This document shows, piece after piece, positions 25,113-56,600 of a stretch of DNA of 64,000 nt. How positions within the stretch are numbered: the first letter of the stretch is position 1; every line of letters begins with the position of its first letter. The notes under the pieces were generated by a model that was not told the origin of the DNA, did no database searches, and was given only the letters and a program-made list of their open reading frames with translations. The translations under genes and the position numbers were made by a program. The stretch is from Yamagishiella unicocca (taxonomy: Eukaryota; Chlorophyta; Chlorophyceae; Chlamydomonadales; Volvocaceae): NCBI GenBank assembly GCA_003116995.1, contig BDSL01000157.1:92924-156923 (forward strand). Reading direction: 5' to 3'.

Positions 25113-28100
25113 CTATTGCTGCTGCTGGGCTGCCCCACCCGCCACCACCTGCTCCGGCGCCATGCCCTTGCTGAACAGCATCCGGTACACCCGCGTGCTG
25201 CCCTGGCCGCCGATCTCGCCAGCAAGCAGCTGCTCAGCCGCCGCGGAGGGGTCCGCTCCCGCGGCGGCGGCGCTCCTCATGGCCGCCTTGTAGCTCTCCC
25301 ACAGGAGGGCGGGTGTGGGGTACCGTGCCAGCACGCGGCTCGCCCTCTCCTCGCCCATTCCTGCATCAAAAGGAACGGGAGCCAGGGGGCGTCCGAAGGC
25401 AGCGGGGGTCGCTGGTTATACCTGACGTCGCTGCTGTTGGGGCCGTGAGGCCGATCACATGCAAGCCGCGCACGTGCCTTCGTGCTGGCAGGCCATCTGG
25501 TGGTGGCTGCCAAGCCAAGGGCCAAATCAAGGTATGCATCATTCCCCCAGACGCCTCAGCACCCAGTAGCCCCAGCTGCTTCGCGGCTGCGCAATCAGGA
25601 CCACACCCGCCCAGAGAGGTGCCGAGAAACGCATCCGCGCCTCCAGCGGGCGCCCCGTGCCCCAATCTTAGGCGAGGGTTCCGTACTTTTGTGGCGTGTG
25701 CGCTCCAGGGCTCGTGTCCCGCTTGTGTCCCCTTGCAACCCCACGTGCTCCCTTGCAACCCCACGTGCTCCCTTGCACCCCCACGTGTCCCCTGGTGGGC
25801 CCTGGTGCCCCCTTCCGGGTCCCGATGTCTACTTCAGGGGCGCACCCAGCAGCGCGCCAGCTCATACCGCACACCTGCGGGACGGCATCTTCCCTGGAGT
25901 CGTCCCGACCCATAACAGCCGCACGCCCCCGTCCCTCTCGCTCCTCGCGGTCAGTGTTCCCTAAGGCGGCGCGGCACCAGCCCCCCGGCTTCTCGCTGCG
26001 TTTGATAGACGACCACGACCGCGCCTTCCAATCCCCCGCCAACGTTACGGAGTATTCCAGCTCGCTTCCGAGCCGCACCGGCGGCGCGCTTAGGTTATTC
26101 AAGGCGGGCCCTCCGCCCGAGCGCTCCAGAATGCACTTCCCTATACTCATTTCACGGTGATTCTTTCTCCTCGGTTTACCATGTCGTACCAACCCCAACC
26201 GCCCGCCGGACGCCACCTCACCTTGCACTGCGCAGAGCATCAGCCCGAACATCGCCTGCACCTTCATGCTCTGCTTCAGGTTCTTCAGCCCCGCGTCCCA
26301 CGTCGGGTAGGACGGCAGCGGGTCGTCCCCAGCCGACCCTGCGTCGTCCCCGCCACCCCCGCCGTCGCTACGAGCAGCACCAGCGGGCGCCACCCTGCCC
26401 CGATACTGCCGCTCTATAGCCCGGGTCAGCATGCCCAGCTGCCTTGCGGTGTCGTCGCAGTCGGCGGTCCGCAGCACCGTGAAGCCCTCCAGCAGGGCCG
26501 ACTGGACGGCGGTGCGCAGTGTCTTCTCCTCGAGGCCTACGTGCGGATGGGGGTATGAGAGGAAGACCCGTGGGTCGGCGCGGGCTAGGAAACAGGGGCA
26601 GGGGTCCGGGCTTGGGAGCCGATGGCGAAGATGGAGACGTGGCGAGACGGGCCGGGCGGCGGCGGGGGGCCGGCGGGATGCGGGGCTGGGCGCGAGCGGC
26701 CATCAGGGAGCAGGTGCGGGACGTGGAGGAGTAAACGAGCGACCCGCGCTGTGCCGTTTGGGGGTGCTTCAAGCCGCGGGTCAGTGTGGTGCGGAGGGGC
26801 CAGCGGAGAGCTAGGGAGCCAGGGCGGCCTGGGCAACACCGGGGGGCTGGCGACATAAGACGATGAGGATGCATGCATGCAGCAACGCAGTTGCGCCAGC
26901 AACGAAGGGTGCGACAAACCGTAAACCACTCCCCTCCCCTTCCCCTCACGCCCTCTGCGACAAACCGTAAACCACTCCCCTCCCCTTCCCCTCACGCCCT
27001 CCCCTCCCCCCCGTTTCCTATGTCGTGTCACCGGGTCTTCTCGCCCCCCCTCCCCCTGCGCGCGTGTCCAGATGTCCGAAGGCTATGCACCCACTACACT
27101 TCCCAAGTCGATTTACCGGGCCTTTTCTCGCCCCCCCCCCCACCCTGGATGTGCGGCTGCCCGATGGGCTCCTCCAGCAGGTAGTACAGCCGCCGCAGCC
27201 CGCAGCGCTTGAGGCGGTACTTCTGCTGCGCGTAGCGGCCGTCGCGCACGGAGCCCAGCAGGTCCTCGACCCGCTTGCGCTCCAGAACCGCGTCCAGCAG
27301 AAACCTGCGGCCGGGGGGTTACAAGTAAAGAACCGGCCGGGGGGGGGGGACAAGCAGGGAGGGGCGCGGCAGGCGGGGGGTTCAAGTCAGGGGTGCAATG
27401 GCTGGGTTGTCGGGGGAGATGGTGTGTGTGTGGGGGGGGGAAGCAAGCAGGTAGCGAGAGTGGGGGCATCGCGGCCGGTATGCGAGGCGGGAGCAGAGGG
27501 GGCGGCAGCTGGGCGGCAGCTGGGCGGCAGGCTGGCGGGGAGAGGTGGCCGGCCGCGCGGCAAGGATGGGCGCACGCAATAGCGGCGGATCAGGTTGCGG
27601 AATGAGCGCGGGGGGCATTTGACGAGACGGGTAACGGAAGAGGCCTGGTTGGTAGGTAAGAGGGCTCACGTTACACCGGAAACGGGCGCGGCATGGCCTT
27701 CCTCCGACGGCCCTGCCCTGCCCTCACCGCTGCCATCCATCCACCCACCCACCACTGGTCCTTCCAAACGTGTGTGCGCCAGACATTCCCTAATCGGTGT
27801 TACGCTTCAGTGCCGACCCACGGGTCCCCCCTCACACCCACCACTGGTCCTTCGCGCTCTGGCTCAGCGGCGCCCCCCTCCTGGCTGCCACCCACACGAA
27901 GTCCCCCACGCTCAGCGACACGCCCGCCACCAGCCGCACGCCCTGCGCCTTGGCGTGCCGCCGCACCGCCTCCACCAGCGCGGGCGGCTCCCGGTTGTCC
28001 ACCAGCAGCACCACCTGCAGGAAGGGGCAGGACGGGGGGTTGTAAGAGACAGGAGGGGGGGGCCAGGAGGGGGATGTTACAGAAAAGAGCCGGTAGCTGG

Positions 28101-31100
28101 TAGCTCGACATGGGGTAGCTGGTGCATAGCCTTCGGCAGGAGAGGGGGGAGGTAAAGACCCGGTTACACGAGGGGCGGGGGGAAGGTGGATAGCGGCGTA
28201 GCAGCGGCGTGCCAACAGCGGCGTATTCGGCGATCCTGCACACCGCCACCCCATAGGCAGCAACGCCCCCGGTTCTTAGCAACGCAGGTAATGAATGGCT
28301 GTTGCCGTACTTACGTCGTACACATCCTCAAATCTTTGCCCTGCCCCCAACGGCGGCAGCCTGACCGGCAGCGCGCGGTGGTTGGCGGTTACCTCGGACA
28401 CCCTCGGCAGCAGCCATTCATAGGTGCATAGCCTGGAGGGAGGTGGTGCCCGGGAGGGGGAGGGGAGACCCGGTTACACGACATAGGAGGCCGAGGAAGG
28501 TTACAGAAAAGGACCGGTAACTCGACATGGGAAGTGTAGCTGGTGTATAGTCTTCGGACACCTGGACGCGCGCCGGGGTGGGGTGGGGTGGCGGGGGGAA
28601 AGAGGAAACCCGTTGGGAGGGTTTCGAGGAAGACCCGTGGACGCGAGAAACACCGTAAGGAGGTGGGGAGAGGGCCCGTAAGGGGGGGTTACAATAATAG
28701 ACCCGATAACGCGACTGGGGAAATCACGGGGGAGCGGTCACGGGGGAGGCAGCGGCTGGGAGGGAGGTGGAACCAGCAATGTCATCATCCCGGTTACAAC
28801 CCTCACTTGCCGCGTACGTGGATTGTTGCGTACCCGCAGCTGCACGGTACAGACCACAACAACCGTCGGCAACCGCCACACGCGGAGCCCCCACTCACGT
28901 CTTTTCGTCGCCTGCGTCTGAGGCCTCCCCCTCCAAGAACTGGCTGCCGCTGCCGGCGCCCTGCAAGCTGCCCATCGCGGTCAGCTGCTGGGACCCCGTG
29001 CCGTACAGCTGTTGAGATCCCGTGCCGTACAGCTGTTGAGATCCCGTGCCGTTCAGCTGCTGCGATGGCGCTTCTGAGGGTAGCTGGGAGCCGTGCAGCT
29101 GCTGGCTGCCGGGACCGGGACCCCCGAAGGCTAGGTCCTGCGAGGCACGGACGAAGGGACCGCCCGCAGGATGGGAGCCACACCCACCGCCAGGACCACC
29201 GCCAGGGCCGGACCCCGCTCGCGCCAATGTCAATGCCGTTGCGCCAGCGTCAGCAGCCGCGGCACCTTCGGCTCCGGAACCAACTGCCTTTGAGTCCTTG
29301 GCTCCCCGAGGGTGCGCACGCGGAGCGACCCCTGCGCCCCCAGCGACTGCGGCAGCGGCAGCCAAGGGACAGGCCATCGGCGGCAGCCCTAGGGGGACAG
29401 CAGCCGCCTGGGCACCCGCCTTGGCGCCCGGCTTCTCCCCCCGGCAGCCCGCGCCAGCCGCAGCGCCGTTCGCGGCTGCCGTGACTGCCCTGAGCACCTC
29501 GCGGCCCCCCTGAGAGTGCCGAGGCGGTAGCTGCGGTTGTAGCTGCGGCTGTAGCTGCGGTTGTGACTGCAGCTCGGGCCCTGCCGCCTCGTCCTCGATG
29601 GAGCTGGTGGACGCGGCGGGGCTCACCGCGCCGTCGTCCAGGCGGTCCATAGCGGAGGAGAAGTCGCCCCTTTCGCGGCGTAGGGCCTGGGGGAAGAGGA
29701 AGGGTGACGGGGCCGGGGGATTACAGAAAAGAACCGGTTACTCGACATGGGAAGCGTAGCTGGTGCATAGGGGGTCCGGGGGAGGGGGACAGTGGTTTGG
29801 GTTTGGAGGGGGGGTTGCTTCGGATGCGGCGTGTCTACAGCGGTGGGGTGCAGCGGTGGGGTGCAGCGGTGGGGTGCAGCGGTGGGGTGCAGCGGTGGGG
29901 TGCAGCGGTGGGGTGCAGCGGTGGGGTGCAGCGGTGGGGTGCAGCGGTGGGGTGCAGCAGTGGACAGCCCGAACAGCGAAGGAGGGAAGATAAAACCCGA
30001 TTACGCAACATAGGAGATGGAGGACAGGAGCCGTGAGAGGGGGGACAGACGTGCGAGGCATGGCTGCCGTACACACGTACACACGGCCTCTGCCGCCCAG
30101 CAAGCCACCATTCCGAATCAGGCAAGATAGGATCCTTCATCGCCCCTCATCGGCCCTCATCAGCCCTCATCGGCGCGGAGAATTGCATCCACTTGTGTGG
30201 TACCGTAGTGGGACCCCGACAGACCAGGCGCCCAAGCGATGACTGCTAAGCACGGCCTGCAACCAAGTCAGCGCCGTAGCGACGCCCCCCTCACCCTCAA
30301 CGCCTGGCGTCCTTGCCGGCCCCCCCGCCGGCCCATGTTACACTGCCCATGTCGTGTGCAACCGTGTCATTACCCCGCCCTCCCCGGGTCTTCCTCGAGC
30401 CCTCCCCGGCCCCCCCGCCCCGCCTCGTCCCGCGCACCTACGCCCCTTAGATGGCTGGCGGTCGCTTCTCACTCCCACGTCGGTCCGCGGGGCTCCTCGG
30501 CCCCACCCCATCTGGTATTTTCCGGCTTCCTCACGTCGTCCGCAACATTATGGTCCGTATTCGGGCGGGTCGGGACCTTGCCGCGCTGTCCGCTCTCCCA
30601 TCGCTCGCCGCCTCCCCCATTTCTCCAGCTAGCGCCCAAAACCAACCGGTTTCGCTTAACGTTTCCTTGCGTCGCGCGGGGGCCTCGCTTCCTTTCGTCC
30701 AGCCGCCGCCGATTTAGCTTAGCCGCCGAAGGTCGACATACGACCTCCGTCTTTCGTATCCTCACCCAGTTCTCCAGCATACATCTCGAAACGTCTTTTC
30801 TAAACGGTTTCGTTTCCGCATCCACGGGTCTTCCTCGAAATCCCCCACGTCGGTCCGCGGGGCTCCTCGGCCCCCCCCCCGGCCCCGCCACCACCTCCAC
30901 CGTCCTCGGTTTGTCGGCTGCGGATTCGCGGAGTCTCTTATAACACACACACCTCGGGCGCACCCACCTTGCGCGCGAGCCGCCGGTCGAAGCCCATTGC
31001 CACCATGTGGTCCACATCCGCGTCGCTGAGCACCACCCGCGCCCGCTTGGGAGCAGCTGCTGCTGCTACTGCTGGTACAGCTGTAGCTGCTGCTACAGCT

Positions 31101-34100
31101 CCCGCGGCCACTGTCCCCCGGGCCTGATCCTGGCCCAACACGGCAGTCGCCGTGAACCGCTCCGGCTGCTGTCGCAGCTGCGGTAGCTGGGGCTGGGGCT
31201 GCAGCCGCTGGGAGCAGTTCGGGGCGGCGGCATCCGGGTCCCGCAGCAGGAACGCAAACGACGTGTCCAATCCGGGTCCGCTGCTGGGGGCGCTGCCGGG
31301 TCCTCCTGCCTGCCCCGGGTCGCCGTCCTCGTCGCTGCTGTCCAACAACTCCACAACAACCACCCCCCTGTCCCTCGCTCCTCTCAGGTCCTGGGCCCCA
31401 CCGCCATCACCACCCCCTGCCGCGACCGCCGCAGCGGCTGACCGCGCCGCCGGCGCGGCAGCGGCGGCCGGCGCCGCCGGCCGTGACGGCGGCAGCCGCC
31501 CGGAGGCTCCGCCATCGGCGGCCATCGCGGCAGCGAGGCCCCCCCGAGCCGCGCCAGCGGCGGTGCGTACACCGCTGTCGTACGCCAGCCCGGCGCTGTT
31601 GAAGATGTCCCCCATGTTGGCTCCGGGGCGGGCGAAACCCGCCAGTGGTGCAGCAGTGCCCGAACACGCCCTCCCCAGCGGGTCGCCTAGGGCGCCCTGG
31701 CTGCCCTGCAGGCCCTGGCTTCCAATAAGGCCCTGCAGGCCCTGGCTTCCAATAAGGCCCTGCAGGCCCTGGCTTCCAATAAGGCCCTGGCCGCTCCAGA
31801 CGCCTTGGCCGCTCCCCAAGTCCACTTCGTCGCTGCTGAGGGCGCTCGCACCGCTGGTTCGCCTTCGATGTGAGGGGCCGCGGGCAGGGCCAGCAGCAGC
31901 AGCAGCCGCAGCAACAGCCGTCGCAGCAGCCGCAGGGCCAGCAGCAGGGCCAGCTCCGGCGGCCGACCCCAGGGCCGCAGCCGCGCCCCCCCGCTCCTGC
32001 CTAGGCGGCGGCTCGAAGCCCCTGTAGGCTCGTCCTGGGGGCCGCAATGGGGGGTCAGGGTGGGGGTGGGGGTGAGAGCGCCCGTATGCGCACTGTGCTA
32101 GCTGCCGCTGTAGGAGTGGCTGAGAGGGAGTGTCCGGGGTTTGCGAAAAGGGGAGGAGGCAGGGCATGCCGGTACCGTTGCAAGCAGTCGGGACTCTGGC
32201 GGCGGCACATGGAGGCCGAGTGCCCCTGACCCAGATCCTGGAGATCAAATCCCCTACCCGACCCTCTGGCCCTGATCAAATCCCCTACCCGACCCCTGAC
32301 CCTGATCAAATCCCCTACCCGACCCCCTGACCCCGATCAAATCCCCGACCCGACCCCTGACCCTGATCAAATCCCCTACCCAACCCCTGACCCTGATCAA
32401 ATCCCCTACCCGACCCCCTGACCCCGATCAAATCCCCTACCCGACCCCCTGATCCTGATCAAATCCCCTACCCGAACCCCTGACCCCGATCAAATCCCCT
32501 ACCCGACCCCCTGACCCAGATCAAATCCCCTACCCGACCCCTGCCGCACCGCACCCCTGCACGCCGCCCTGCCCCCGCTGCGCCTTTGCCCCAGCCCGCG
32601 GCCGCCTTGTGGGGCCTTATCATCATCCGCCACCGCCACAACGTCCCTCGAAGCTGGACTTCCCTGGGCACGTTACCGCCCCCCCACCCCGTGCTCTCCA
32701 GCATGCATCTCGAAACGTCTGTTCTAAACGCTTTTCCTTCGTACAACGGTTTTCCTTGCAACCCCCCGCCCTATACCCCGGGCGGTAAGGGGGGAGAAAG
32801 TACCACATACACGCCCCCACCCCCGCCGCTGCCGCACCTCTCGTCGCGCACGCCGGCGTGCCGTTGGGGTACGGCATCAGCAGCGGCTCCACCTCCTCCA
32901 CCTCGCAGTAGCGCCGGATTTCATCGTCCACCTGCTCCTCGGTGACACCCGGCAGGGGGGCCACCTCCTGGTACCTGTGGCGCAGCAGCGGCAGCATCAG
33001 TGGCAGCATCAGCATCAGCAGCAGACCGCAGACTGAGTGGGCCTCGCCGCAACAGCCGTCCTCACCCGTGCTGCCACAACAGACAACTCTGTAACCCACG
33101 GCTCGGTGGGCTGCGGAGCTGTCTCCAAGGCCGCGGCCATAACGCAGTTCGTTGGTGCGGCCGGCATAACCATGACACCCGGGCCACCATCCTGACTTTC
33201 CTCGCCAACCCCAGCCCAAACGGCTTTTCCTTCGTACACGGGTGTTCCTTGCAACCCCGCAGCGGGCGGACGGACGCACGGCCAGGAGCGAGTTGACGTG
33301 AGGTCGAGGAAAGGAGCGAGTTGACGTGAGGTCGCCTGCAGCGGCCCACCGCGCCCTCACCGCGGCCGCCGCGGTCCCGGCCCCGCCCCCCCCCGTTTCC
33401 CCAGCTACTACTGCTACATTGGTTCCCCGGCTTCAGCCTCGCCCCACCTGACCGCGGACTTGTACAGCCGAGCCGCCAGCGCCCAGCCCAGGTTGGTCAG
33501 CGTGTACTCCTTGCCGCGGGCGCCTTTGGCCTTGGTGCGCTCGCTGGCCATGGGGGGGTCGCGGGTGATGAGCCCCTGAGAGGGCAGGGCAGGGCAGGGT
33601 AGGGTAGGGTAGGGTAGGGTAGGGTAGGGCAGGGCAGGGCAGGGCAGGGCAGGGCAGGGCAGGGCAGGGCAGGGCAGGGCAGGGCAGGGCAGGGCAGGGC
33701 AGGGCAGGGCAGGGCAGGGCAGGGCAGGCAGCCAGTGGCGGGGTGTGAATCGGGCGAGCGCACGGAAGGGTGCCGGGAGGCCCAATTGAGGTTCAGAGAG
33801 GGGGGCCCCAATGGTACAGGTGCGGGGGTAGGAGCGGCTGGGCAGGCGGTGCAGCTGTTCCGTGTAGTGGCGCACTGCCGAGTGCGTGTTAGGTGTGGAG
33901 GGGGAAGGGTGTCGGTGGTGAGCGGATATTTCGCGTACGACGAAAAACCCGGCGACCCTCTCCCCTCCCAACACCCACCACAGGGACTGAGCCTCCAAGC
34001 GCCTCACCAGGCCTCTCCACCATCGCACCCCTGCCAAGCGACACCGAAATCTCACCCCCCACCATCCCCACACACTAATCGACCGCCACCTCCTATACAA

Positions 34101-36648
34101 TACATACCGATCTGGGTAGGGCCGCATGCTCCACCTGACCGTCACTCGTCCTTATTATTTCTATTGCTGACGCGACACCCCATAACGGCAACCAGAAACA
34201 ACCGTCACGCAACCCGCCTTTGCAGGCCGCTTGCGGTTCCCTGTCCCCGCCCCCTCTCGCCCCCCCCAGCGTCCACACGTGAGTTCACGACATGGCGCTG
34301 TCCACGCGAGGCGCTACCCACGTGGCACCTGGCACCATCCACGCGGCGCTACACACGTGGCGCTACCCACGCGGCGCTGCCCACGTGGCGCTGCCCACGT
34401 GGCGCTGCCCACGTGGCGCTGTCCATGCAGGCCTCCCGGCTCGGCCTCGCCCCACCACGCCTGACGGCCACCTGCTCACCCTGAAGCACGACCAGCCGTC
34501 ATAGAAGTTGGACGCCTTCCCTGGAGCGGACAGGTCCTTGACCCCGTGCAAGTTCTTCTCCGCCAGCCCGCTCGCCTGCGCGGCGGCCATGAGGTCCTCC
34601 TTGTCCCACTGCCGCCGCTTCTCACGCTTCCAGGCCTGGGTGGTTGAAGGAGGAGAAGGCGGCGGCGGGGGAGGAGGCGCAGGCCGCCAAGTTCAGGAGG
34701 GGGGGGCAAGAGGCTTGCACCCGTACGGTACGGCACGCAATCCCAGGCGGCCGCCCGTGCGCCAGCAGGTCGGGGCCGGGGATCCGAGAGGAAACCCATG
34801 GGTCGGCACGGAACAGTAAAAACAGGGCCGGGGGCGGGTGGGAATCGTACGACACGACCGTAATGACCCTTGCTGGCCATCGTGCGATGTGCGGCGAAGC
34901 ACCGTGTGGGCTCTGCGGCCACCGCGCTGGGGGCTGGGCGGCAGGCTTGGGGGCCCCTCCCTCCTGCTCCCATGTGCACTGGCGAGGGGTGGTGCTACAG
35001 GGGCGGCTGCCGCAGGGGATGCGGACAGCGACACCCACCCACTGGGCCGTGTCGGCAGGCGCCATTGCAACAAGCGACCGGTGGGCCGCCAGGAGGATGA
35101 GGAGCGACATTTGCCGCCCCCGCTGCCTCCCCCCGGCCCCGCTGCTGCGCCCCCCCCACCCCGCCGCCACACCGCTCGACCCACCAGGTACATCACCACG
35201 AGGAAGGCGTAGTTGGCGGTGCCGGGGTTGGCCACGTAGGTGCGCGCAGGGGCCTCACCCTCGTCGCTCTGACGCCGGGCGCGCTTGCGCGCCGGGCCCG
35301 GGGCCGCTGTCGGGGCCGCTGCCGGCGGTGCTGCGAGCAGCTGGGTGCCCAGTCCCAGCCCAGCAGCCGCTGCTCCTCGTCCTCCAGCGAAGGCACCGCC
35401 CGCGTACACCCCCGTCGTTGCTGCTTCTGCTCCGGCGCCGGCCGCACCGCCAGCACCCAGGCCCAGGCCGGTGCTGAGGGCCGCGAGCGCATCCAGTCCT
35501 CCCAGTCTCAGCAGCAAACCGCCGCCGCCGCCGTCGCTGCCGCCATCGGACTCAACCTCGGGCTCCCCGCGCTTGCGGCGGCCCCGTCCCTTGCCGCCGC
35601 CTGCGCTGGCGCCCCGCCCTCGGCCTCTGCCCCGCCCTCGGCCGCGGGCTGCTGCGACTACCTCCGCTACCTCCGGCGCCCTGCCGCCCGCATCTCCCGC
35701 CTCCACCATGAGGGTGGCACCAAAAGGTATGTCATGCGGATCCATGGCTCCAGTACCCATCGCCGCCGATGCGGCGGCCTTGCGCCCGCCGCCGCGGCCG
35801 CCACCGCGGCCGGCAGCGCCCGCCACTGGCAGCATCTGCGCCGCCTGCCGTACTTCGTCCTCCAGCTGCTCCTCCTCCGAATCCGCGTCGGCCGGCGGAT
35901 ACTCGCTCCATAGCACGCCCTCCACCAGCTGCCGGTTTGACAAGCAGCGGAACGGCTTTTGCGGAAGGCATCAGCAGGGGCCATCGGCATGCGAAGCTTA
36001 CCCTTTCTGCGCCCCAACCCAGTTCGTGAATACGCCATTTGGTTCCATTGCTGCGGCCCCGGAAATCATCAAGCACTTGATCATGCCCATCCCACATAAG
36101 TACCCTACCGATAACCATGACCGCACCTAGCACTCAACGCCATCGCCCGGCGGATGCGCACCTTTGTAGTGAAGTCGCCGATACCGCTGACCGCTTTAAG
36201 CTGCTGCGGCGTGCGGATGCGGGTAGGATGCTGGCCTACGTTCTGAGCGGCCTTGTTGAGCCCGTACGCCCAGCCTGAACGCCCCGCTTCATTGCTATCC
36301 TCCAGCCGTTTCACTGCCCTGCTGGCCAGGTATGGGGACGACAGACAGTACGCCAGGTGATGCCCAATGATTAGTCGATGCCTTAGTACCGGTAGTCCAA
36401 AGCGATGTGCCGACAGCGTCTGTCGCGTCCGCTCGCTCGCCACAAGTCACAAGTTAAACGCCGATATCCATATCTGACCTCAGAAAGTAGAACAACTCCA
36501 GGTTGCCAGGGTTACGAATCGGCTCACGGCGCCCAGCGTCGTCCTCGGCCCGTCGATGAGCCTCCGCTGCGCACGAAACATACTTTTGAAAACGCTTGTT
36601 CCCACCACCCGCTGCTACAGCTTTTAAAGTCGCAGTCGTCGTAAGCAT
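25113..36648 (-). CDS. MUS81: MUS81 structure-specific endonuclease catalytic subunit, expanded form
   Basis: Thirteen minus-strand exons: 36479-36648, 36162-36318, 35185-35928, 34480-34635, 33448-33575, 32838-32974, 30968-32034, 28899-29686, 28315-28432, 27842-28014, 27144-27304, 26222-26536, 25113-25360; every junction is in phase, 1453 residues. MUS81 with EME1 cuts 3' flaps, nicked Holliday junctions and stalled forks in the nucleus. Domains in order: N-terminal helix-hairpin-helix (about 1-115, VSGIGDF), Gly-rich basic linker, winged-helix region (KRRQWDKEDLM, SNFYDGWSC), UBA-like helix trio (about 838-870, MVAMGFDRRLARK), then the XPF-type nuclease with DNRE (1161-1164), GDF (1192-1194) and ERK (1221-1223), DGRYAQQKYRLKRCGL, LRTADCDDTARQL, and the C-terminal HhH (GMGEERASRVLARYPTP). 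It is more than twice the usual 550-660 residues because of Ala/Gly/Gln-rich insertions. Start ATG has context CCACCATG. Confidence 0.93.
25729..25790. repeat. Short tandem repeat in MUS81 intron 12
   Basis: About three copies of a 20-bp unit containing CCCTTGCAACCCCACGTG, in the intron between the last two MUS81 exons. Confidence 0.8.
26558..26580 (-). repeat. Intron-end motif, acceptor side (MUS81 intron 11)
   Basis: Plus-strand GAGGAAGACCCGTGGGTCGG lies just 5' (in sense) of the acceptor at 26537, in the orientation opposite to donor-side copies. Similar copies: 27818-27836 and 34785-34805. Confidence 0.6.
27008..27128 (-). repeat. Intron-end motif, donor side (MUS81 intron 11), two copies
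   Basis: Two adjacent copies. 27008-27050 reads, in the sense (minus) strand, AGACCCGGTGACACGACATA. 27076-27128 reads AAAAGGCCCGGTAAATCGAC followed by a tail shared with 28075-28135. The block ends 15 nt from the 5' splice site at 27143. Confidence 0.65.
27316..27345 (+). repeat. Intron-end motif, acceptor side (MUS81 intron 10)
   Basis: GGGTTACAAGTAAAGAACCGG on the plus strand (antisense), 12 nt from the acceptor at 27305. Shares GTTACA, AAAGA and ACCGG with the copies at 28075, 28499 and 29719. Confidence 0.5.
28075..28135 (+). repeat. Intron-end motif, acceptor side (MUS81 intron 9)
   Basis: Antisense copy containing TTACAGAAAAGAGCCGGTAG, then CTCGACATGGGG and TAGCTGGTGCATAGCCTTCGG, 60 nt from the acceptor at 28015. 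A second partial copy (AAAGACCCGGTTACACGAGG) follows at 28153-28172. Confidence 0.7.
28456..28557 (+). repeat. Intron-end motif, acceptor side (MUS81 intron 8), two copies
   Basis: First copy AGACCCGGTTACACGACATA (from about 28466); second from 28499 with TTACAGAAAAGGACCGGTAA, CTCGACATGGGAAG and TAGCTGGTGTATAGTCTTCGG. Both are antisense to MUS81, within about 125 nt of the acceptor at 28433. Confidence 0.7.
29719..29778 (+). repeat. Intron-end motif, acceptor side (MUS81 intron 7)
   Basis: TTACAGAAAAGAACCGGTTA followed by CTCGACATGGGAAG and TAGCTGGTGCATAG, antisense, 32 nt from the acceptor at 29687. Very close to the copies at 28075 and 28499. Confidence 0.7.
29838..29961. repeat. 13-bp tandem repeat in MUS81 intron 7
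   Basis: About nine and a half near-perfect copies of CAGCGGTGGGGTG. Intronic. Confidence 0.95.
30474..30504 (+). repeat. 31-bp direct repeat in MUS81 intron 7, copy 1
   Basis: Begins CCCACGTCGGTCCGCGGGGC and is repeated exactly at 30844-30874, 370 bp away in the same intron. Confidence 0.85.
30785..30838 (-). repeat. Intron-end motif, donor side (MUS81 intron 7)
   Basis: In sense orientation: GAGGAAGACCCGTGGATGCG, then AAACCGTTTAGAAAAGACG and TTTCGAGATG. It is about 130 nt from the donor at 30967. Related copies are at 32700-32761 and 39719-39775. Confidence 0.65.
30844..30874 (+). repeat. 31-bp direct repeat in MUS81 intron 7, copy 2
   Basis: Exact second copy of 30474-30504. Confidence 0.85.
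32236..32545. repeat. 30-31 bp minisatellite in MUS81 intron 6
   Basis: About ten copies of a unit containing GATCAAATCCCCTACCCGAC, differing by single bases and one-base length changes. Confidence 0.95.
32700..32761 (-). repeat. Intron-end motif, donor side (MUS81 intron 6)
   Basis: Sense strand reads CGAAGGAAAAGCGTTTAGAA then CAGACGTTTCGAGATGCATGC, about 80-135 nt from the donor at 32837. The plus-strand hydrolase gene has the same block in its own sense orientation at 39719-39775. A truncated copy lies at 33219-33257. Confidence 0.65.
33581..33728. repeat. AGGGC/AGGGT pentanucleotide microsatellite
   Basis: About 29 units of AGGGC with a block of AGGGT, starting 6 nt from the 3' splice site in MUS81 intron 4. 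Confidence 0.97.
34305..34425. repeat. CGCTGCCCACGTGG-type tandem repeat in MUS81 intron 4
   Basis: About eight degenerate 14-15 bp units, each containing CCACGTGG or CCACGCGG. Confidence 0.8.
34785..34805 (+). repeat. Intron-end motif, acceptor side (MUS81 intron 3)
   Basis: GAGGAAACCCATGGGTCGGC, antisense, about 150 nt from the acceptor at 34636. Nearly the same as 26558-26580. Confidence 0.5.
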
Positions 36649-37053
36649 GGTGGCTTGGCTGCGGATAGCTACAAACTGCAAAGCTCATGGGCCATTTCAG
36701 AGCAGACGTTAGGGGCTCTAACGCTGATTGGCTAACAGTATGAATTTAATTAGTGGAGCCAACGGACTTACAAAGAGGCGAACGTATGCAGTAGCGTGTT
36801 TCGCGCCATGCAGCTCATGCCACGCAAGTCATGCACCAATTGCAGAAGCGAAGGATGATGACTCAGTGCACGGCCTAACAACGCGAATGGTTATGTGCTC
36901 CAATATCGGAATAAGAGGTTATACTCTGTGCAAGGCGCTCCTTGCAACTACTGTAGGCGCTATTTGCCTGTGTGGTTGTAGGCACTTCGGAGTTCAGCCA
37001 TTTTACTCACTTTCCCAACTTGGCGTCTGCGTTTGTAGTCCAATAACTGTGAA
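36649..37053. promoter_or_regulatory. Shared divergent promoter region, MUS81 / alpha-beta hydrolase
   Basis: 405 bp between opposite start codons, AT-richer than the flanking introns. Open frames here (for example 36728-37240) show no conserved motif. No specific element identified. Confidence 0.5.
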
Positions 37054-40000
37054 ATGTTGGGGCAATCTCGCTTTGTGGGGTCCGCAGCCCGTGGCAAACA
37101 ACAACCAACACATACGCGAGCCCTCCGCGCATGCCCTACAAGTATTTCCACGGCGAGGCTTATACTCGAGGAGAGAAACGATGGCGTCATCGCTCGTGCT
37201 GTGTATGATAATGTGGCGAGTTTGCCTGGTGAGGTCGTGATTGGAACGCAAACAACGCTGCGGACAGCCTTTCTACTGGCTGGCAGCCAGCGCCGGGTGT
37301 TCTTATGCATTAATTCGCAACGACTTTGCGACCGCCCATACCGTCATCCTAACTGACTTCGCGGTGACCACCACCGCCCTTTCCCATCGCACACACACAC
37401 CCCTTGTCAACTTGCCAAGTCCATGCCCTTTCCTTCCCGCGACCCCCTTTCACAAAGCCTGACATCCGCAGCCCTCTGGCCCCACCTTGGTTCAGTTTCC
37501 CCCCGCTCTATCCGGCATGCCCACGCTCGGCCCCATCTGACGACCCTCAGCAATCACGCTTACGCGCCAACCCCGCTCGTCTCTCCCTCCCTCCCTAGAG
37601 CCCCAGTGGCGCGACAACCAGCTCCGCTGGTCACGGCCGCCCAGCCCATCGCAGGTGGCGGCACCGCCCGGGTCGCCTGCCGTCGTCATCCTGCCGGGCT
37701 TCGGCAACGCCTCCACTGATTATACGGAGCCCTTCGGCAACAAGGAAGCGGCCATAGCGACACGACTCGCGGTACGGCCGGTACTGGGCAGGAGCAGGGG
37801 CGTGCGCTGGCGCGGAAACGCTCTCGCAACACCCTCCCACCGTCCCAGCCCACCACCGGCCGCCCCGGACCCCCCCCCCCCTTGATCCGCCCTGTCCCTC
37901 CAGATCCGCGGCTGGCAGCCCTTCGTGGTGCCCGTGGAGCGCAAGGACTGGTTCCGGGTGGCCCGGGCGCTGTTCACCAGGCGCTTCTGGCAGAGCAGCC
38001 TCACCACGGAGCCGGGGTACACGTGGTGCGAGGAGGGAGGAGGGGGGAAAGGGAGGTGGCATAAAAACCGTTTACGCCACGACGGGACAGAATAGTTGGC
38101 GCAGGGTCGTCGGACACCGATTTTGTGGGCGCAGGGAGAGGGAGGGGGAGGGCAGGGGGAGGGCAGGGGGCAGCGAAGGAACACGAGAAACACGGGGGGA
38201 TGGGGCGGAGCACGGCGGGGCCGAGGTTGCGAGGTTGTGACAACTTCGTGGGCACTCCCGATGTCAGTTAATGCGAACATTTAATGCGAACACGTCATTA
38301 TGCCTTCAGCGGCACCTCACCACTGACCCTGAGTCCAAGGGTCTTGGGAGACGTCCCCGGTTTCGTTCGGTGCCGATGCTGTGGGCGAGTGGGCATCCTT
38401 TGGTCGCGATCGGTTGGCTGCGGATGGGAACGTGTGGTAGAGGAGACAGCGAAGGGCAAGGGCAGCGGGTTGCGGGCGGTGGTCCGCTCTCGCCTCCTCT
38501 TACCTGCACCCCGCCTGGCCCCAACCGCCGCTGCTGGCCGCACCCGCAGGTACCTGGAGCGAGTGGCTAGCACGGTGGAGCAGGCGGTGCGGGAGACGGG
38601 GGCGAAGCAGGTGTGTGTGTGTGTGCGCTGGAGGGCGGGCGGGAGACGGGGGCGGAGGAGGTGTGTGTGCTGGAGGGCGGGGCGGGAGATGGAAGGAGAA
38701 ACTCAGTCGAGGGCACTAATGGACTGTAATCCTGTTAGGAGGGGCGGAGCAGCGTAGGGAACGAGGGGCTCGGACTACATCTGATTGGCTGGGGGAATGG
38801 GGATGTTCATGCGGCCACGAAGGTCCGGGCGAAAAGCTACCTGCTCGCGCTGCCGGCTCGTCGAAGAACGTCGACTGCTATCTCCTTTGTTGCCGTTGTT
38901 AGGTGGACAGCATTCGTCGCTTCCAAGCCGCCGACGCGGGCACGTGCCGAGGTCGTGCCCCGTGGCCAGCACTGGCGGGCCGCCGAGCACGGCTGGGCGC
39001 CATTGACGTGTTCCATCACCACGGCCATTAAAGGTTCCATCACCTTTCGGCCTCCATAAATCCTGCGCCTCCGCCGCACATATTCCTTGCTTCTGCACCA
39101 CGCTCTGACGTCAAGCTTCGCCCACAGACGGTATCTTTATATCTCGGTCCTTCCACCACGCGGCCCCCAGCAATACCCCACCTCGCATCTTACCCACATC
39201 TTACCTTCCCCGGCCCCTATCCCCCCCGCCTAGACACACGCACCAAGCCCGGCCTCCATCCCTCCTCTCCCCCACACCACCGGCTAGTTTCTGCCCTCCG
39301 TTTCCTATTGTCGTGTAATCGAGTGTCCTCGCCCCCCCCACCCGCCATCCCCCGGACGGCACAGGTGATCCTGGTGGGCCACTCGGCTGGCGGCTGGCTG
39401 GGTCGCGCCTACCTGGCTGACCCGCGTTACCAGCAGGAGCTGCCGCTGCTGCCGCCGGGCACAGCGGGCACGGCTCCGAACCCCCGCGTGCGCGCCATGG
39501 TGACCCTGGGGACGCCGCAGCGGCCGCCTCCGCCCGAGAAGAAGCGGGACATGACAGGTGGGTGCCGCGTTGGCGGGCAGCATAGGAACGCATGTTGGGC
39601 GGGTGGGTTAATGGGTGCGGGTGGTGAGGCAGGGGAAGGGGCGCTTCCGGTGCGGGATGCGGAGCACTGAATGGCAGCGGTAGCGTGGAAACATGGAAAC
39701 GCATATGGCGGGGGGTGGGAGGAAAACCCGTGTGCGAAGGAAAACCGTTTAGGACAGACGTTCCACGATGCATGGCAGGGGAGGGAGGCCCCAGGGAGGG
39801 CAGTATTAATGGTAGGTGTGGGCGGGCGGTGCGGGCGATTGTGACGGGGGACACCTTGGAGGAGGAGGAGGAGGAGTCTTAAGGGTTGGTGGCATGGGGG
39901 AGGAGATTTAAGGAGGTTGGGGGGGGGGGCGCCTGGCTTTGTTAACCCCATGGACATAGGGAGGTGTATTAGGGATACATTGTGCTGCAGCACGGGGGGC

Positions 40001-42960
40001 ACGGAGCCCCTGTGCTGCGCTGACGGGCGCAACCTCGACGGCGGAGGGAGGTGGGAGGAAGGTGGAGGGAGGGAGGGAGGTGGAGGGAGGGAGGGAGGTG
40101 GGAGGCAGGTGGGAGGCAGGTGGGAGGCAGGTGGGAGGGAGGGAGGCAGGTGGCGGGGAGGGAGGCAGGTGGGAGGCAGGTGGGAGGGAGGCAGGTGGGA
40201 CGGCTGCGGCGCACCGCCCTACCCCGAACCGGCCGCACTGAAGGCTTCCCCGCCTCCCTACCTGCGTCCCGTCGCACACCGCAACGCCCGGCAGTGCTCC
40301 CATAATACGACAGCGCCATTCCCGCGCCCCCCGCATTGACGCCTCCACCGCCTCCACCGCCTCCACCCGGAACGCGGTATCGACATCCCACCTGCATCCC
40401 CACCCCCCGACTCCGCCACCCTACGGCGCCCCGCGGCTGCCCCCCCCCCCTTGGCTGCACGGTTTCTCCTGTCAACGGTTTTTATGCCACCCCCTCCGCC
40501 TTGGCTGCACCCACCAGGCGGAGCGCAAGGGTGGGTTGACCGCTCCTACCCTGGAGCCTTCTTCGCGTCCCAAGGCGTGAGCTACGTGTCGGTGTGCGGG
40601 CGGACGGTGCGGGGCCACCGCGAGGTCCCCCGCACTCGCGAGGGGCCGAGGGTGCCCGAGGAGTACGCGCACGACAGCTACACCGAGGTGCGGCGGGAGG
40701 GCGAGTGAGGAAGCGCGCACAGTTTTGCGGCGTACCGGGTGGGCGGGAAAGAGTCTTAGCCCTTGCCCTCGGTTCTTCCTCTAAAGGGGGAATTGCCTCC
40801 TTTTCTTTCCCCTTCGTTTTGCTTCCCTGCGGGGAAAAGGAGGCAATACGATACCTAATACGATACCTAATATGATACCTAATACGATACCTACTAGCAC
40901 AACCAAATCAAGGCGTCGTCCCGTCGAGTTGTTTCGGCGGCGCAGCTTGCCGGGGCGTGCGTACACACGCGTGGCGTACATCTAGGGCAGGACGGACCGC
41001 TTGCGCTGGTGGATGTGGATGCGGGTTGGGGCGCAGAGGGGCCGGGGGGGCCCGGTATGAGAGGGGGGGCCGGCATGAGAGGGGGGGCCGCGCACGGGAC
41101 ATGGACAGTAGCACGAGAGGTCCCCTGGCCTAAGGGACGGGGAAGCGGGAATCAGGGGTCGATCGTCCATGCCGCACCGCAAACGGCCAAAGCGCCCTCA
41201 AACCCTCCCTGCCCCGTCCCGCCGCCCAATCGTTGCCCGCCACCCGTCCCCGCACCCGGCTATGCGCACACCGCCATGCTCCCCGTTTGTCTGCGCCGGG
41301 CCGTCGTACAGTCCTACAAACACCTGCCGTAAACGCCCTTGGGCGTATCCGGCCAACCGATCGGCGGTCCCCCCTCTTTCACCACGCCGCCTCGGACTCG
41401 TCGTCGCTTTGGCCACTGTAGCTACATTTCGCTACCTCAAAATGCCCTGACGCCTGCTCTCCCTCCTTCCCCTCCCCCATGCTTTGCGCTGACGGCCGTC
41501 GCTAACCGCTTTGGGCTCTGGCCAGGTGGGTTTCCCGGCCGGGTTCGGGATACAGGAACTATTTTCGTGTATGCTTGCTGTCTAGGCTGTGGGCCTGCGG
41601 GTGCTGGTGTCTGCGCCGTCGTCGGTTCTAGGAGTTGATTTGGCGCGTTGCGAGCCTCGCGACATGGCGCGAACGCTGGGTGGTCACAATGGTTAACGTA
41701 TCTCGTCAGCATGGTGACGAGGCCCGGGCCGGGCTTGTACGAGTTCATGCCACCGCCATGTTCAGTCAGCGGACCGAGCCGTGGCGCATGCGCCCCAAAC
41801 GGACCGGCAGCTATGTTTCTGTTCCCCCACGGCGCCGTCGACGAGATCCCTCCGCAGGTTTCCGGTTGCCAAACAAAGTTATTTGGTTTGGCGCAAACCC
41901 AAACGCGTGTTCCCCGCGGACCATTCAGCGGACCATTCAGCGGACCAAACGCGGACCATTCAGCTACAACTTCCCATGTCGAGTAGCCGTTTCTCTTCTG
42001 TAACATACGCGTACACAGAAACACATGTAAACACACGCGCGCAGGTGTGCGGCGAGGGCCAGGGCGTCGCTGGCGACTGCGTGGTCCCGCTGGGTAGCGC
42101 CATGCTGCCGGGGGCGCGGCAGGTGGTCCTGGACGGCGTCTACCACTCCATGTCCAGGATTGGCACGTTCGACGAGGAGTCGGGTGGGTGCTGGTTGCTG
42201 GGCGGACGGGAACCCGAGGAAGGCGGAGCGTGAGCGGGGTTTCGGCGGGGACGATCCTCGTGTGTGTTTTAAAAATGCTGAGCTGAGCCGCGAAGGAGAA
42301 TGAGCGCGAAGAGTGTGTGTTTTATAGATGCTGCGCGTGTGTGTGTGTGTGTGTGTGTGTGTCAGCGCGTGTATGTGTGTGTTTTGACACGGGCCGCCCG
42401 CAGGCGGAGCTGCTCAGCATCTTGGTGCGGTTTACCCCTTCACGTGCACAGAGCGCGGCACGGGCCGACTTGTGTGCCTCTCGCGGCCCGCCACGTCATA
42501 TGCGCCCAGGCGTGGGGCGGCGCTGCTCACCAACCCAAGACTCTGCGTTTCAGACCCTCACGCATGCTGACACACACTTCTCCATCCTGCTCGTCTTGTC
42601 CGCGCGCGCGGCATTCCTCCCATCGTCCCTACGTGCTCGCCGCTTGACATCAACCTCCCCGGCTCGGCCAGCTGGTAGCGCCAGTGCTGCTGGCTCTGCA
42701 TCTGCATCCTCCGACTCGCTGAACCGCCCCTATACAACCCCCTTGCAATCCATTCTGTTCCGTGGCGTTCGTGTCATGCCCATGCTTGAGCAGGGGTGGT
42801 TTGGTACGGCAGTGAGGACGTACTGGACTGCTGGCTTGGGCCGCTGTTGGAGGAGCTGGCGAGCAGCGGCGGCGACGACGAGAGCTGCGGCGAGGGACAG
42901 GCAGCGATGATGGCCGCGACGACTGAGTGGATGGCCGCGGGGGTGACCGACTCTGGGTAG
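37054..42960 (+). CDS. Alpha/beta hydrolase (plant-type, putative plastid lipase/esterase)
   Basis: Eight exons, 37054-37228, 37599-37771, 37904-38025, 38550-38610, 39365-39557, 40518-40687, 42045-42183, 42794-42960, phases consistent, 399 residues. Matches a plant alpha/beta-hydrolase family: VVILPGFGNASTDY (oxyanion loop), GWQPFVVPVERKDW, GYTWYLERV, the nucleophile elbow VGHSAGGW (Ser184), TLGTP, GAQGWVDR, and C-terminal GDCVVP (Asp309), DGVYHS (His332) and WYGSEDV, giving a complete candidate Ser-Asp-His triad. The N terminus (MLGQSRFVGSAARGKQQ) is basic and Ser/Ala-rich, suiting plastid import. Substrate unknown; the plant relatives are usually annotated only as hydrolases. A very small exon between 40687 and 42045 may be missing, because plants have about ten more residues before the conserved VCG. 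Confidence 0.86.
38045..38080 (+). repeat. Intron-end motif, donor side (hydrolase intron 3)
   Basis: Contains GGTGGCATAAAAACCGTT (38055-38072), 30 nt from the donor at 38026. Its exact 18-nt reverse complement is at 40474-40491, on the acceptor side of hydrolase intron 5. Confidence 0.7.
39300..39336 (-). repeat. Intron-end motif, acceptor side (hydrolase intron 4)
   Basis: Sense strand reads TTTCCTATTGTCGTGTAATC then GAGTGTCCTCG, about 30 nt from the acceptor at 39364. This is the reverse complement of the donor-side motif seen at 27008-27050. Confidence 0.65.
39719..39775 (+). repeat. Intron-end motif, donor side (hydrolase intron 5)
   Basis: GAGGAAAACCCGTGTGCGAA, then GGAAAACCGTTTAGGACAGA and a tail ending GATGCATGGC. 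Same sense orientation relative to transcription as the MUS81 donor-side copies at 30785 and 32700. Confidence 0.65.
40042..40201. repeat. GGGAGGCAGGT / GGAGGTGGAG purine-rich tandem repeat
   Basis: Degenerate tandem units of 11-16 bp in intron 5 of the hydrolase. Strongly purine-strand biased, so able to form unusual G-rich structures. Confidence 0.9.
40461..40491 (-). repeat. Intron-end motif, acceptor side (hydrolase intron 5)
   Basis: Contains AACGGTTTTTATGCCACC, exact reverse complement of the donor-side copy at 38055-38072, 26 nt from the acceptor at 40517. Confidence 0.7.
42336..42382. repeat. GT dinucleotide microsatellite
   Basis: About 13 uninterrupted GT units, then interrupted GT runs, in the last intron of the hydrolase gene. 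Confidence 0.9.
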
Positions 42961-53600: not shown

Positions 53601-56600
53601 CCACGACCTGGGACACCGGCCTTCAAGTGCGCCCCTACACCCCCCATGCCGCCCAGCCCGGCGCCATCATCACCTCAGCCACCTAGCCCCGTGCCACCAA
53701 CCCCTCCGCCAAGCGCCCCTAAACCACCAAGCCCGGTCCCACCGTCACCTCCGCCAAGCCCGCCATTGCCGCCTTCACCTAAACCGCCAAGCCCGGCGCC
53801 GCCAACGCCGCCGCCTAGCCCCCAACCGCCCTCCCCTAAGCCACCCAGCCCTATGCCGCCGTCGCCTCCGCCAAGCCCACCAATCCCGCCTTCACCTAAA
53901 CCGCCAAGCCCATCGCCTCCATCGCCCCCACCTAGGCCCCCATTGCCGCCATCTCCAAAACCACCCAGCCCCCAGCCGCCATCACCGCCACCAAGTCCGC
54001 TTCCGCCTTCGCCCAAGCCGCCAAACCCTGCGCCACCGTCGCCGCATCCCAGTCCTGCGCCGCCGTCGCCGCCGCCCAGCCCGCCGCCCAGCCCTGTGCC
54101 GCCGTCGCCGCCACCTAGCCCTGCGCCGCCGTCGCCGCCACCTAGCCCTGCGCCGCCGTCGCCGCCGCCGAGCCCCGCACCACCGTCGCCGCCGCCCAGC
54201 CCTCAACCGCCGTCGCCGCCGCCCAGCCCCGCACCACGGGCACCGTCGCCGCCGCCCAGCCCCACGCCGCCGTCGCCGCCGCCGAGCCCCACGCCGCCGT
54301 CGCCGCCGCCGAGCCCCACGCCGCCGTCGCCGCCGCCCAGCCCTCAACCGCCGTCGCCGCCGCCCAGCCCCGCACCACCGTCGCCGCCGCCGAGCCCCAC
54401 GCCGCCGTCGCCGCCGCCGAGCCCCACGCCGCCGTCGCCGCCGCCGAGCCCCACGCCGCCGTCGCCGCCGCCGAGCCCCACGCCGCCGTCGCCGCCGCCC
54501 AGCCCTCAACCGCCGTCGCCGCCGCCCAGCCCTCAACCGCCGTCGCCGCCGCCGAGGCCTCTACCACCATCTCCGAAGCCGCCAAGCCCCCAGCCGCCGT
54601 CTCTGAAGCCTCCCAGCCCCCAGCCGCCATCACCGCGGCCGAACCCTCAACCACCATCTCCGAAGCCTCCCAGCCCTGCGCCGCCGCAGCCGCCGCCCAG
54701 CCCTGTGCCACCGTCACCGCCGCCGAGCCCCAAGCCGCCATCACTGCCGCCAAGCCCGCAGCCGCCATCCCCACCGCCCAGCCCGCGGCTTCCAGTGCCA
54801 CAGCCTCCAAGCCCACGTCCTCCTTCTCCTGGACCGCCACGTCCCCGACCGCCTCCACGGCCACCTGCACCTCCGAGCCCGCCAACGGCAGGCATAATAG
54901 AGCCTTGTGTGTATGCCGATCCAGGCAACTACAGCCAAATGGACCCAAGCGACCCCATGGTATGTTTTCATCCTGTATTGCCTTTTTCCTTTAGGTTGTC
55001 ATTGCTTAACTGCAGTGCGTTGCCGGGTACTTTAAAGCTGTGAAAGGTGGTAAGGTGTCGTTTTGTGCTAATGCGCTTGCTTCCATGCAGAACGGCATCG
55101 AGACGTGCACGGACCAGGCTCATTGTCTGGACGTGTACATGGACAGCGGCACGTGCACCATGGTGTCAGACGACGACAGCACCTGGCTCTACTGCCAGGT
55201 GTGCCTCTACTGGAGCGACGAACGCGCCACCTGTGCCAAGTCCAGTGAGGACATTGTCAGCCATGTGTGCATGGGCGACGAGTTCTACCCCGTTATTCCA
55301 ACTCCTGGAAGCCAGCCAACGATGGGTGACACACAAAAGTATGAGGACTGGAGCGACGGCGTTGCCAGTAAGTGAGGGTACATCAGGGATATGATGGCTC
55401 GATGCCAAAGGACACGATGCACATATTGAGGTTCAGGGTTCGAGGTGGAGGTCTATATAAATTACATCCGCCCAGGGACAACCTCCGACAACATGGTACA
55501 CAAATTTCCGCGCAGATCGTTATTGTCAGTGGGCTCGCTGGAACAGTACGAACTACGGCACGGAAACAGTTCGTTTCACTGTCAAGGATGGCAACGGCGC
55601 ATGTCGGGAAGGTAAGTGCGGCTTCAGGTATGCAGAGTTCTTGTTCTAGTGCTTGCGGGGTGTATTTCCTTGCACTCGGTGAAATTCGTCTCGAAAAGGT
55701 TTACGAGTTGCGGTGCGAGATGCACTGACATCCTTAACAATTACCCTCCCAATTAATGCTTCGGATTCCTGCCTTTTCTTGCTACTTGCAGCCACCGCCA
55801 ACCCTCTCACGGTCACTCTGCAAGGAATAACCGCGTCCTGCCAAGCACCTCGGATTGTCAGTGGAACCATGGCGGGTTGCGGGGATAACAACATGCCAAA
55901 TGAATGTCTGTGGTCGTTTGACATTCCGCGGCCCGGTACACCTGGATACAAGTGCGCTCTTCCACCGCCCGCGCCCCCGAGCCCGGCACCGCCCAGCCCG
56001 GCGCCACCTTCACCGCCGCCCAGCCCCGCGCCTCCATCGCCGCCGCCCAGCCCCGCGCCGCCATCGCCGCCGCCCAGCCCCGCGCCTCCGTCGCCGCCGC
56101 CGAGCCCCGTGCCGCCGTCGCCCCCGCCCAGCCCCGCGCCGCCGTCACCGCCGCCCAGCCCTGCACCGCCGTCGCCGCCGCCGAGCCCCGTGCCGCCGTC
56201 GCCGCCGCCCAGCCCCGCACCGCCATCGCCGCCGCCGAGCCCCGTGCCGCCGTCACCGCCACCTAGCCCTGCGCCGCCGTCGCCGCCGCCCAGCCCCGCC
56301 CCGCCGTCGCCGCCGCCCAGCCCCGCCCCGCCGTTGCCGCCGCCCAGCCCCGCGCCGCCATCGCCGCCGCCCAGCCCCGCACCGCCGTCGCCGCCGCCGA
56401 GCCCCGTGCCGCCGTCGCCCCCGCCCAGCCCCGCGCCGCCGTCACCGCCGCCCAGCCCTGCACCGCCGTCGCCGCCGCCGAGCCCTGTGCCGCCGTCGCC
56501 GCCACCCAGCCCCGCCCCGCCGTCGCCGCCGCCCAGCCCCGCGCCGCCATCGCCACCGCCCAGCCCCGCACCGCCGTCGCCGCCGCCGAGCCCTGTGCCA

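Follow-up and report, generated by a model that had tools for sequence, protein, structure and literature searches.

Here we analysed a stretch of 64,000 nucleotides (the window), which forms part of the 133.4-Mb genome of Yamagishiella unicocca (1,415 contigs), and in particular the introns of two genes lying on opposite strands, MUS81, with its ERCC4 domain and approximately 12 introns, and an alpha/beta-hydrolase gene (Table 1). The exons of MUS81 match, one by one, the proteins of Chlamydomonas reinhardtii, Volvox reticuliferus, Astrephomene gubernaculifera and Volvox carteri. These protein matches contain an exon at 28312-28431 that the original prediction made on this DNA had overlooked, so that what appeared to be one MUS81 intron is actually two, called here 8a and 8b. 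Tandem repeats occupy parts of two further MUS81 introns, one with a unit of approximately 30 nt containing ATCAAATCCCCTACCCGACC in intron 6 (32241-32560) and the other an AGGGC/AGGGT array in intron 4 (33590-33730), and the region 55967-63858 of the window, with 75-84% GC and long coding-like frames on the minus strand, is probably repetitive.

The original prediction described a single loose consensus recurring in the introns of both genes. In the window, the motif GAAAAGACCCGGT was matched 6 times with up to 2 mismatches, against 1.06 expected, and CACGACATAGGAAG 14 times with up to 3 mismatches, against 3.5 expected; 7 of these 14 fell outside the two genes, each with 3 mismatches and in the number expected by chance. 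The motif TAGCTGGTGCATAG showed no excess over chance in the window (5 matches with up to 3 mismatches, 4.8 expected), and its three copies with no or one mismatch each stand immediately behind the other motifs. Profile models (E < 0.1) yielded 19 rows in the window, corresponding to 18 pieces, since two rows are parts of one long A-type copy in which the A profile covers 41540-42004 and an upstream module spans 41310-41753 (B profile E = 4.4e-77). The D profile also matched 28464-28561 (E = 2.4e-12), covering the piece at 28466-28488 and part of the next one. All 18 pieces lie inside introns of MUS81 or of the hydrolase gene, and 17 of them read inward from the nearer splice site (p = 1.4e-4), between 11 and 602 nt separating their fixed ends from the splice site that they face. 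The recurrence of the motif in both genes is thus real, and because the inward rule applies on both strands its orientation follows the gene and not the chromosome, as had been predicted. Five of the copies listed earlier (26558, 27316, 27818, 34785 and 40461) are absent from the profile matches, some of them having been checked by eye only.

Table 1. Genes, intron pieces and target-site duplications identified in the window
Feature	Position	Strand	Basis
MUS81 gene (ERCC4 domain), ~12 introns	25143..36649	-	Pfam PF02732; exons by tblastn with volvocine proteins; first-exon start from open frame only
Alpha/beta-hydrolase gene	37600..42957	+	Pfam PF00561, PF12697; exon limits from open frames and splice-like letters, not relatives
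Family D piece, inward from 5' end of MUS81 intron 10	27011..27044	-	profile E=1.4e-7; position
Family A piece, 11 nt off 5' splice site, MUS81 intron 10	27057..27137	-	E=9.7e-20
16-nt A-like scrap (27319-27334) between two GGCCGGGGGG copies, adjoining 3' splice site (acceptor), MUS81 intron 9	27309..27344	+	by eye; absent from profile matches
Family A piece, inverted, 3' part of MUS81 intron 8b	28074..28136	+	E=3e-9
Weak D-like piece, inverted, MUS81 intron 8b	28155..28171	+	E=0.098
A/D-like piece, inverted, 32 nt from 3' splice site, MUS81 intron 8a	28466..28488	+	E=0.047 as A
Family A piece, inverted, MUS81 intron 8a	28499..28573	+	E=9e-24
Family B piece, inverted, MUS81 intron 8a	28621..28656	+	E=3.5e-5
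Family A piece, mid-intron, sole exception to inward rule	28683..28724	+	E=0.0031
Family A piece, inverted, 24 nt from 3' splice site, MUS81 intron 7	29716..29770	+	E=1.1e-15
Family D piece, inverted, MUS81 intron 7	29990..30027	+	E=3.4e-4
Weak C/A-like piece, 5' half of MUS81 intron 7	30336..30366	-	E=0.055
Inner copy, 31-nt target-site duplication of B insertion	30474..30504	.	exact direct repeat
Family B insertion, 335 nt, 128 nt from 5' splice site, MUS81 intron 7	30506..30840	-	E=2.9e-76
Outer copy, 31-nt target-site duplication of B insertion	30844..30874	.	exact direct repeat
Family B piece, 61 nt from 5' splice site, MUS81 intron 6	32695..32761	-	E=4.4e-13
Family B piece, 5' half of MUS81 intron 5	33216..33254	-	E=8e-4
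Family C piece, 35 nt from hydrolase 5' splice site	38062..38134	+	E=8.7e-12
Family D piece, inverted, 30 nt from hydrolase 3' splice site	39276..39332	-	E=1.8e-13
Family B piece, 5' part of hydrolase intron	39716..39774	+	E=1.8e-9
Long A-type copy, fixed end 37 nt from hydrolase 3' splice site	41310..42004	-	A E=3.7e-54

Families and abundance of the pieces

Profile searches begun from the motif distinguished at least four related families, A to D, so that the predicted motif does recur but not as a single consensus, and an intron can carry one family at its 5' end and another at its 3' end. While being iterated, the C profile shifted into A, and the label C is accordingly to be read as A or C. 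Nor is the motif confined to the introns of the two genes, a claim that holds for the profile matches within the window but not genome-wide: core patterns of A, B and C have 2,046, 5,480 and 1,114 matches in the whole genome (8,640 in sum), against 31, 75 and 4 (110 in sum) for the reversed control patterns. The core pattern of D, allowing 3 mismatches, has 3,679 matches against 9 when reversed, a count that we did not add to those of A to C because letter comparison indicated that at 3 mismatches it also fits many A copies. Most of the loci examined were picked for holding an A copy, and the unbiased sample consists of the window and of 60 kb selected independently of the motif, in which three pieces were found (one in L039, two in L040 and none in L041-L044), far below the density of the window.

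The longest A copies can be aligned across 700-900 nt, and four long copies are 96-98% identical, which indicates that this element family was active fairly recently. Regular arrangements were also noticed, namely six D cores spaced at 71 nt in a tandem array (C11:1236576-1236950) and three A copies approximately 9.7 kb apart (C29:108270, 117979 and 127689), suggesting the tandem duplication of a 9.7-kb unit. Searches for a known RNA identity gave no tRNA, tmRNA or Rfam match in the window (Rfam at gathering score) and no tRNA in 12 fetched loci, and the single Rfam match in 10 fetched loci was far under its cut-off. As to a Pol III promoter of tRNA, 5S or 7SL type, such as SINEs have, a GGTTCAAGCC box-like stretch was noticed by eye. 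A hairpin at the 3' terminus common to the families, also suspected by eye, was rejected, the folds of the four profile ends being weak and dissimilar.

Fixed ends, G-runs and target duplications

The pieces keep one end and vary in the other. The fixed end (start no more than 8 positions from the end of the model) was kept in 165 of 186 pieces and the far end of the model was reached by 22, so that the pieces display the fixed 3' end and the variable 5' truncation of LINE- and SINE-type retroposons. The median length of 153 fixed-end pieces was 57 nt, in a sample where long copies are over-represented, having been searched for. Within 15 nt outside the fixed end, a G-run (three or more) was present in 146 of these 153 pieces and a C-run in 8, the counts of G at the nearest positions being possibly inflated by terminal G's encoded in the element; at 60-75 nt outside, G-runs and C-runs numbered 66 and 25. 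At the sites with a clean target duplication G's are found in the inner target copy as well, and they are therefore part of the target and not of the element only. Among 18 pieces lying in regionally C-rich DNA, a G-run adjoined the fixed end in 16 and a C-run in none, just two of the 18 being in strongly C-rich surroundings, with a G-run at one of them.

Clear target-site duplications were observed at a handful of sites. The 335-nt B insertion of MUS81 intron 7 is flanked by two exact copies of 31 nt that both lie within the intron, which therefore seems to be older than the insertion; the proposal to look for short target duplications at splice junctions thus ended, for the one readable in the window, with a duplication that does not seem to mark the birth of an intron. 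Other clear direct repeats measure 24 nt (L023), 19 nt (L011 and L031) and 14 nt (L039), and a long young copy (L077) has a flanking repeat of 12 nt. Direct repeats that include six or more letters other than G flanked 14 of 157 pieces, compared with a mean of 1.6 and a maximum of 6 in 200 cross-pairings of the flanks. Seven of these 14 belong to tandem arrays (three in L046, two in L067 and one each in L068 and L053), two consist of element-like letters (L006 and L060) and five are clean. Cross-pairings leave local tandem repeats uncontrolled and we added controls in which one flank, outer or inner, was displaced by 120 nt, which weakened the general claim: such repeats flanked 12 of 149 pieces, the controls giving 1 and 4, and once six doubtful loci were dropped they flanked 5 of 126, the controls giving 0 and 2. 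Recognisable target duplications were therefore present in fewer than 10% of the pieces, and the general claim of target duplication rests on few sites.

Orientation along introns

The inward direction was also apparent from the position of coding sequence around 136 fixed-end pieces with 300-nt flanks, which come mostly from loci chosen for an A copy and include one near-duplicate pair of loci. A coding segment (score of at least 15) no more than 300 nt away was present on the outer side of the fixed end in 48 cases and on the inner side in 5, most of the 136 pieces having no exon call on either side at this score; the corresponding numbers were 61 and 11 at a score of 12, and 31 and 1 at a score of 20. 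At score 15, the plus strand carried the better-scoring outer frame in 25 cases and the minus strand in 23, and the two ends of introns are therefore used about equally. Coding sequence was enclosed in 12 of 21 gaps between divergent neighbours and in 3 of 21 between convergent neighbours, and among neighbours less than 150 nt apart 45 of 47 had the same direction and 2 the opposite one.

The introns themselves are asymmetric between strands. With the pieces masked, 16 of 17 window introns had a greater G skew in the 5' half than in the 3' half, MUS81 intron 5 being the exception, and this held for all six window introns with no profile match (among them intron 9, which has the 16-nt scrap). 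These introns were checked by hand and replaced an automatic list of 12, one of which held an exon. An automatic test on element-free flanks at all loci gave a skew of -0.149 upstream (n = 81) and +0.153 downstream (n = 75; p = 3e-7), and in the window alone, where the list of segments includes dubious frames, it was not significant (p = 0.21-0.26).

Origin of the pieces

The reading that we consider probable is that the pieces are copies of a truncating retroposon primed on G-runs. The motif would be the fixed 3' end of a superfamily of retroposons that are SINE-like or represent LINE 3' ends, most pieces having lost their 5' part and retaining a few dozen bases. Nicking would provide a target strand with a terminal G-run, to which the end of the element RNA (..CUGUAACC or relatives) would anneal and from which it would be copied; copying would halt early and a short target duplication would be left, the handful of readable duplications presumably standing for the rest. 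The strand bearing the G-run would set the orientation, further pieces would land behind the first in the same direction because each insertion duplicates the G-run, and introns would lengthen by accretion. Because the sense strand of these introns tends to be rich in G on the 5' side and in C on the 3' side, insertions directed by the strand of the G-run would face inward from both ends. The enzyme may be supplied by the elements behind at least 150 reverse transcriptase (RVT_1) matches in the genome, which form several groups, many of them in open frames of 1,300-1,570 codons (for example, C10:1714698 and C56:311301), and which are possible partners of the retroposon. The median of 57 nt, very low for a product of target-primed copying, speaks against this reading, as does the lack of any visible A-tail on the pieces.

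The shortness of the pieces would fit patches of break repair, G-runs having broken and the gaps having been filled with scraps from other introns by template switching at G-runs. The G-rich sequence on both sides, the chimaeric and tandem pieces (L030 and L026) and the small number of clear target duplications also agree with such patches. However, a mobile element accounts better for each family having a single fixed end, for the duplications at clean sites, which measure 12 to 31 nt, and for the long copies that are almost identical, and we regard repair as unlikely.

Alternatively, insertion could have been random in both directions and followed by selection, pieces in the wrong direction near a splice site being purged for the acceptor-like or decoy signals that they offer. 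To the eye, the sense-orientation end resembles a branch site with a pyrimidine tract, the long copies bear a sequence like a 5' splice site, and an orientation bias near splice sites is outlined for mammalian introns in PMC3088655. Purging by itself, however, predicts no G-run at the fixed end, while the direction of the pieces tracks the G-run next to them also where the surroundings are C-rich (16 of 18) and close neighbours share a common direction, so that selection is rather unlikely as the source of the pattern.

The splice-site-like sequence of the long copies raises the further idea that the element is a retrotransposing intron. In 16 long copies (L060-L078), AGGTGAGTCC ranked first in conservation among 430 windows of 10 nt, at 0.99 where the mean was 0.81, with AGGTGAGT in 14 of the 16 stretches and AGGTGRGT in all 16; it stands approximately 440 nt before the end resembling a branch site and pyrimidine tract, and a second conserved block of the long A-type copies reads CCTAGTAAGGCGG. 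If inserted at full length and in sense upstream of an AG, the element could then turn into a new spliceosomal intron, truncated copies only lengthening existing ones, and introners borne by RNA would have no need of inverted repeats. We hold this idea to be rather improbable. A sense frame of approximately 200 codons with hydrophobic stretches is open in three of four young A copies (L074, L076 and L078) and broken in L077; the one frame scanned against Pfam (L074) gave nothing above the cut-off, with DUF2244 below threshold (E = 0.19), and we took the open frame to be due to chance.

The original prediction rightly likened the repeats to mobile-element sequence, and it proposed that several of the introns are, or derive from, introner-like elements. 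Introners of this DNA-transposon-like type carry terminal inverted repeats and make introns, and facing pieces would then represent opposite ends of a single element. The facing arrangement is indeed present in both genes, and one locus (L067, 2965-9297) shows the mirrored order A> B> B< A< over 6 kb with about 1.4 kb between the B arms, the only place seen that resembles a nested inverted repeat. Its long B arms, however, are 84% identical to each other and 87-88% identical to the window copy. Few introns have pieces at both ends, and in MUS81 intron 7 B and C face D and A, a mismatch of families that introns 9 and 10 and one hydrolase intron seem to share, with one or both ends read by eye only. 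Close neighbours run in the same direction in 45 of 47 cases, the distance from the fixed ends to the splice site faced varies from 11 to 602 nt, and the 31-nt duplication falls inside an intron, so that the only insertion of the window whose target site can be read seems not to have created the intron holding it. Introners of this kind are thus very unlikely to be the source of the pieces, although an introner-like birth of other introns may have occurred. The other suggestion, that the repeats pair to bring splice sites together, is not supported, since the ends of the same intron paired no better than mismatched ends of different introns (permutation p = 0.40; 12 introns, with MUS81 introns 8a and 8b merged as one).

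Volvocine introns are many and conspicuously long, and what maintains their length is presented as unsettled by Craig et al. 2021 (PMC8226300). A retroposon that lands next to G-runs and duplicates its target would supply a concrete mechanism, in which introns grow from both ends by inward-facing scraps of approximately 50 nt. It would also counsel caution, as intron ends resembling inverted repeats could arise with neither an inverted-repeat transposon nor a pairing function, and any strand-asymmetric target could likewise write polarity into introns. Among the literature matches listed, no title or abstract start describes such pieces.

SINEs and 5'-truncated LINEs, such as Alu and L1, insert by target-primed reverse transcription. 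The pieces described here resemble them in their fixed 3' end, their 5' truncation, the variable length of the duplications at readable sites and their thousands of copies. Unlike L1, for which the target is a T-run, the algal pieces would target a G-run, and they differ from SINEs and LINEs in general in having no visible A-tail, in being very short, in occurring several to an intron in one direction and in having, as partner enzymes, candidates among the RVT_1 matches. In mammalian introns, transposable elements are non-random in orientation and in their distance to splice sites. Both properties are shared by the algal pieces, whose bias, unlike that of the mammalian elements, flips between the two ends of the intron and goes with the strand of the G-run. 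With introners (Gozashti et al. 2022, PMC9860276), the pieces have in common a mobile-looking intron sequence present in thousands of copies in an alga; unlike in introners, no terminal inverted repeats were found in them, their readable insertion lies inside an intron, and several different pieces can occupy the same intron.
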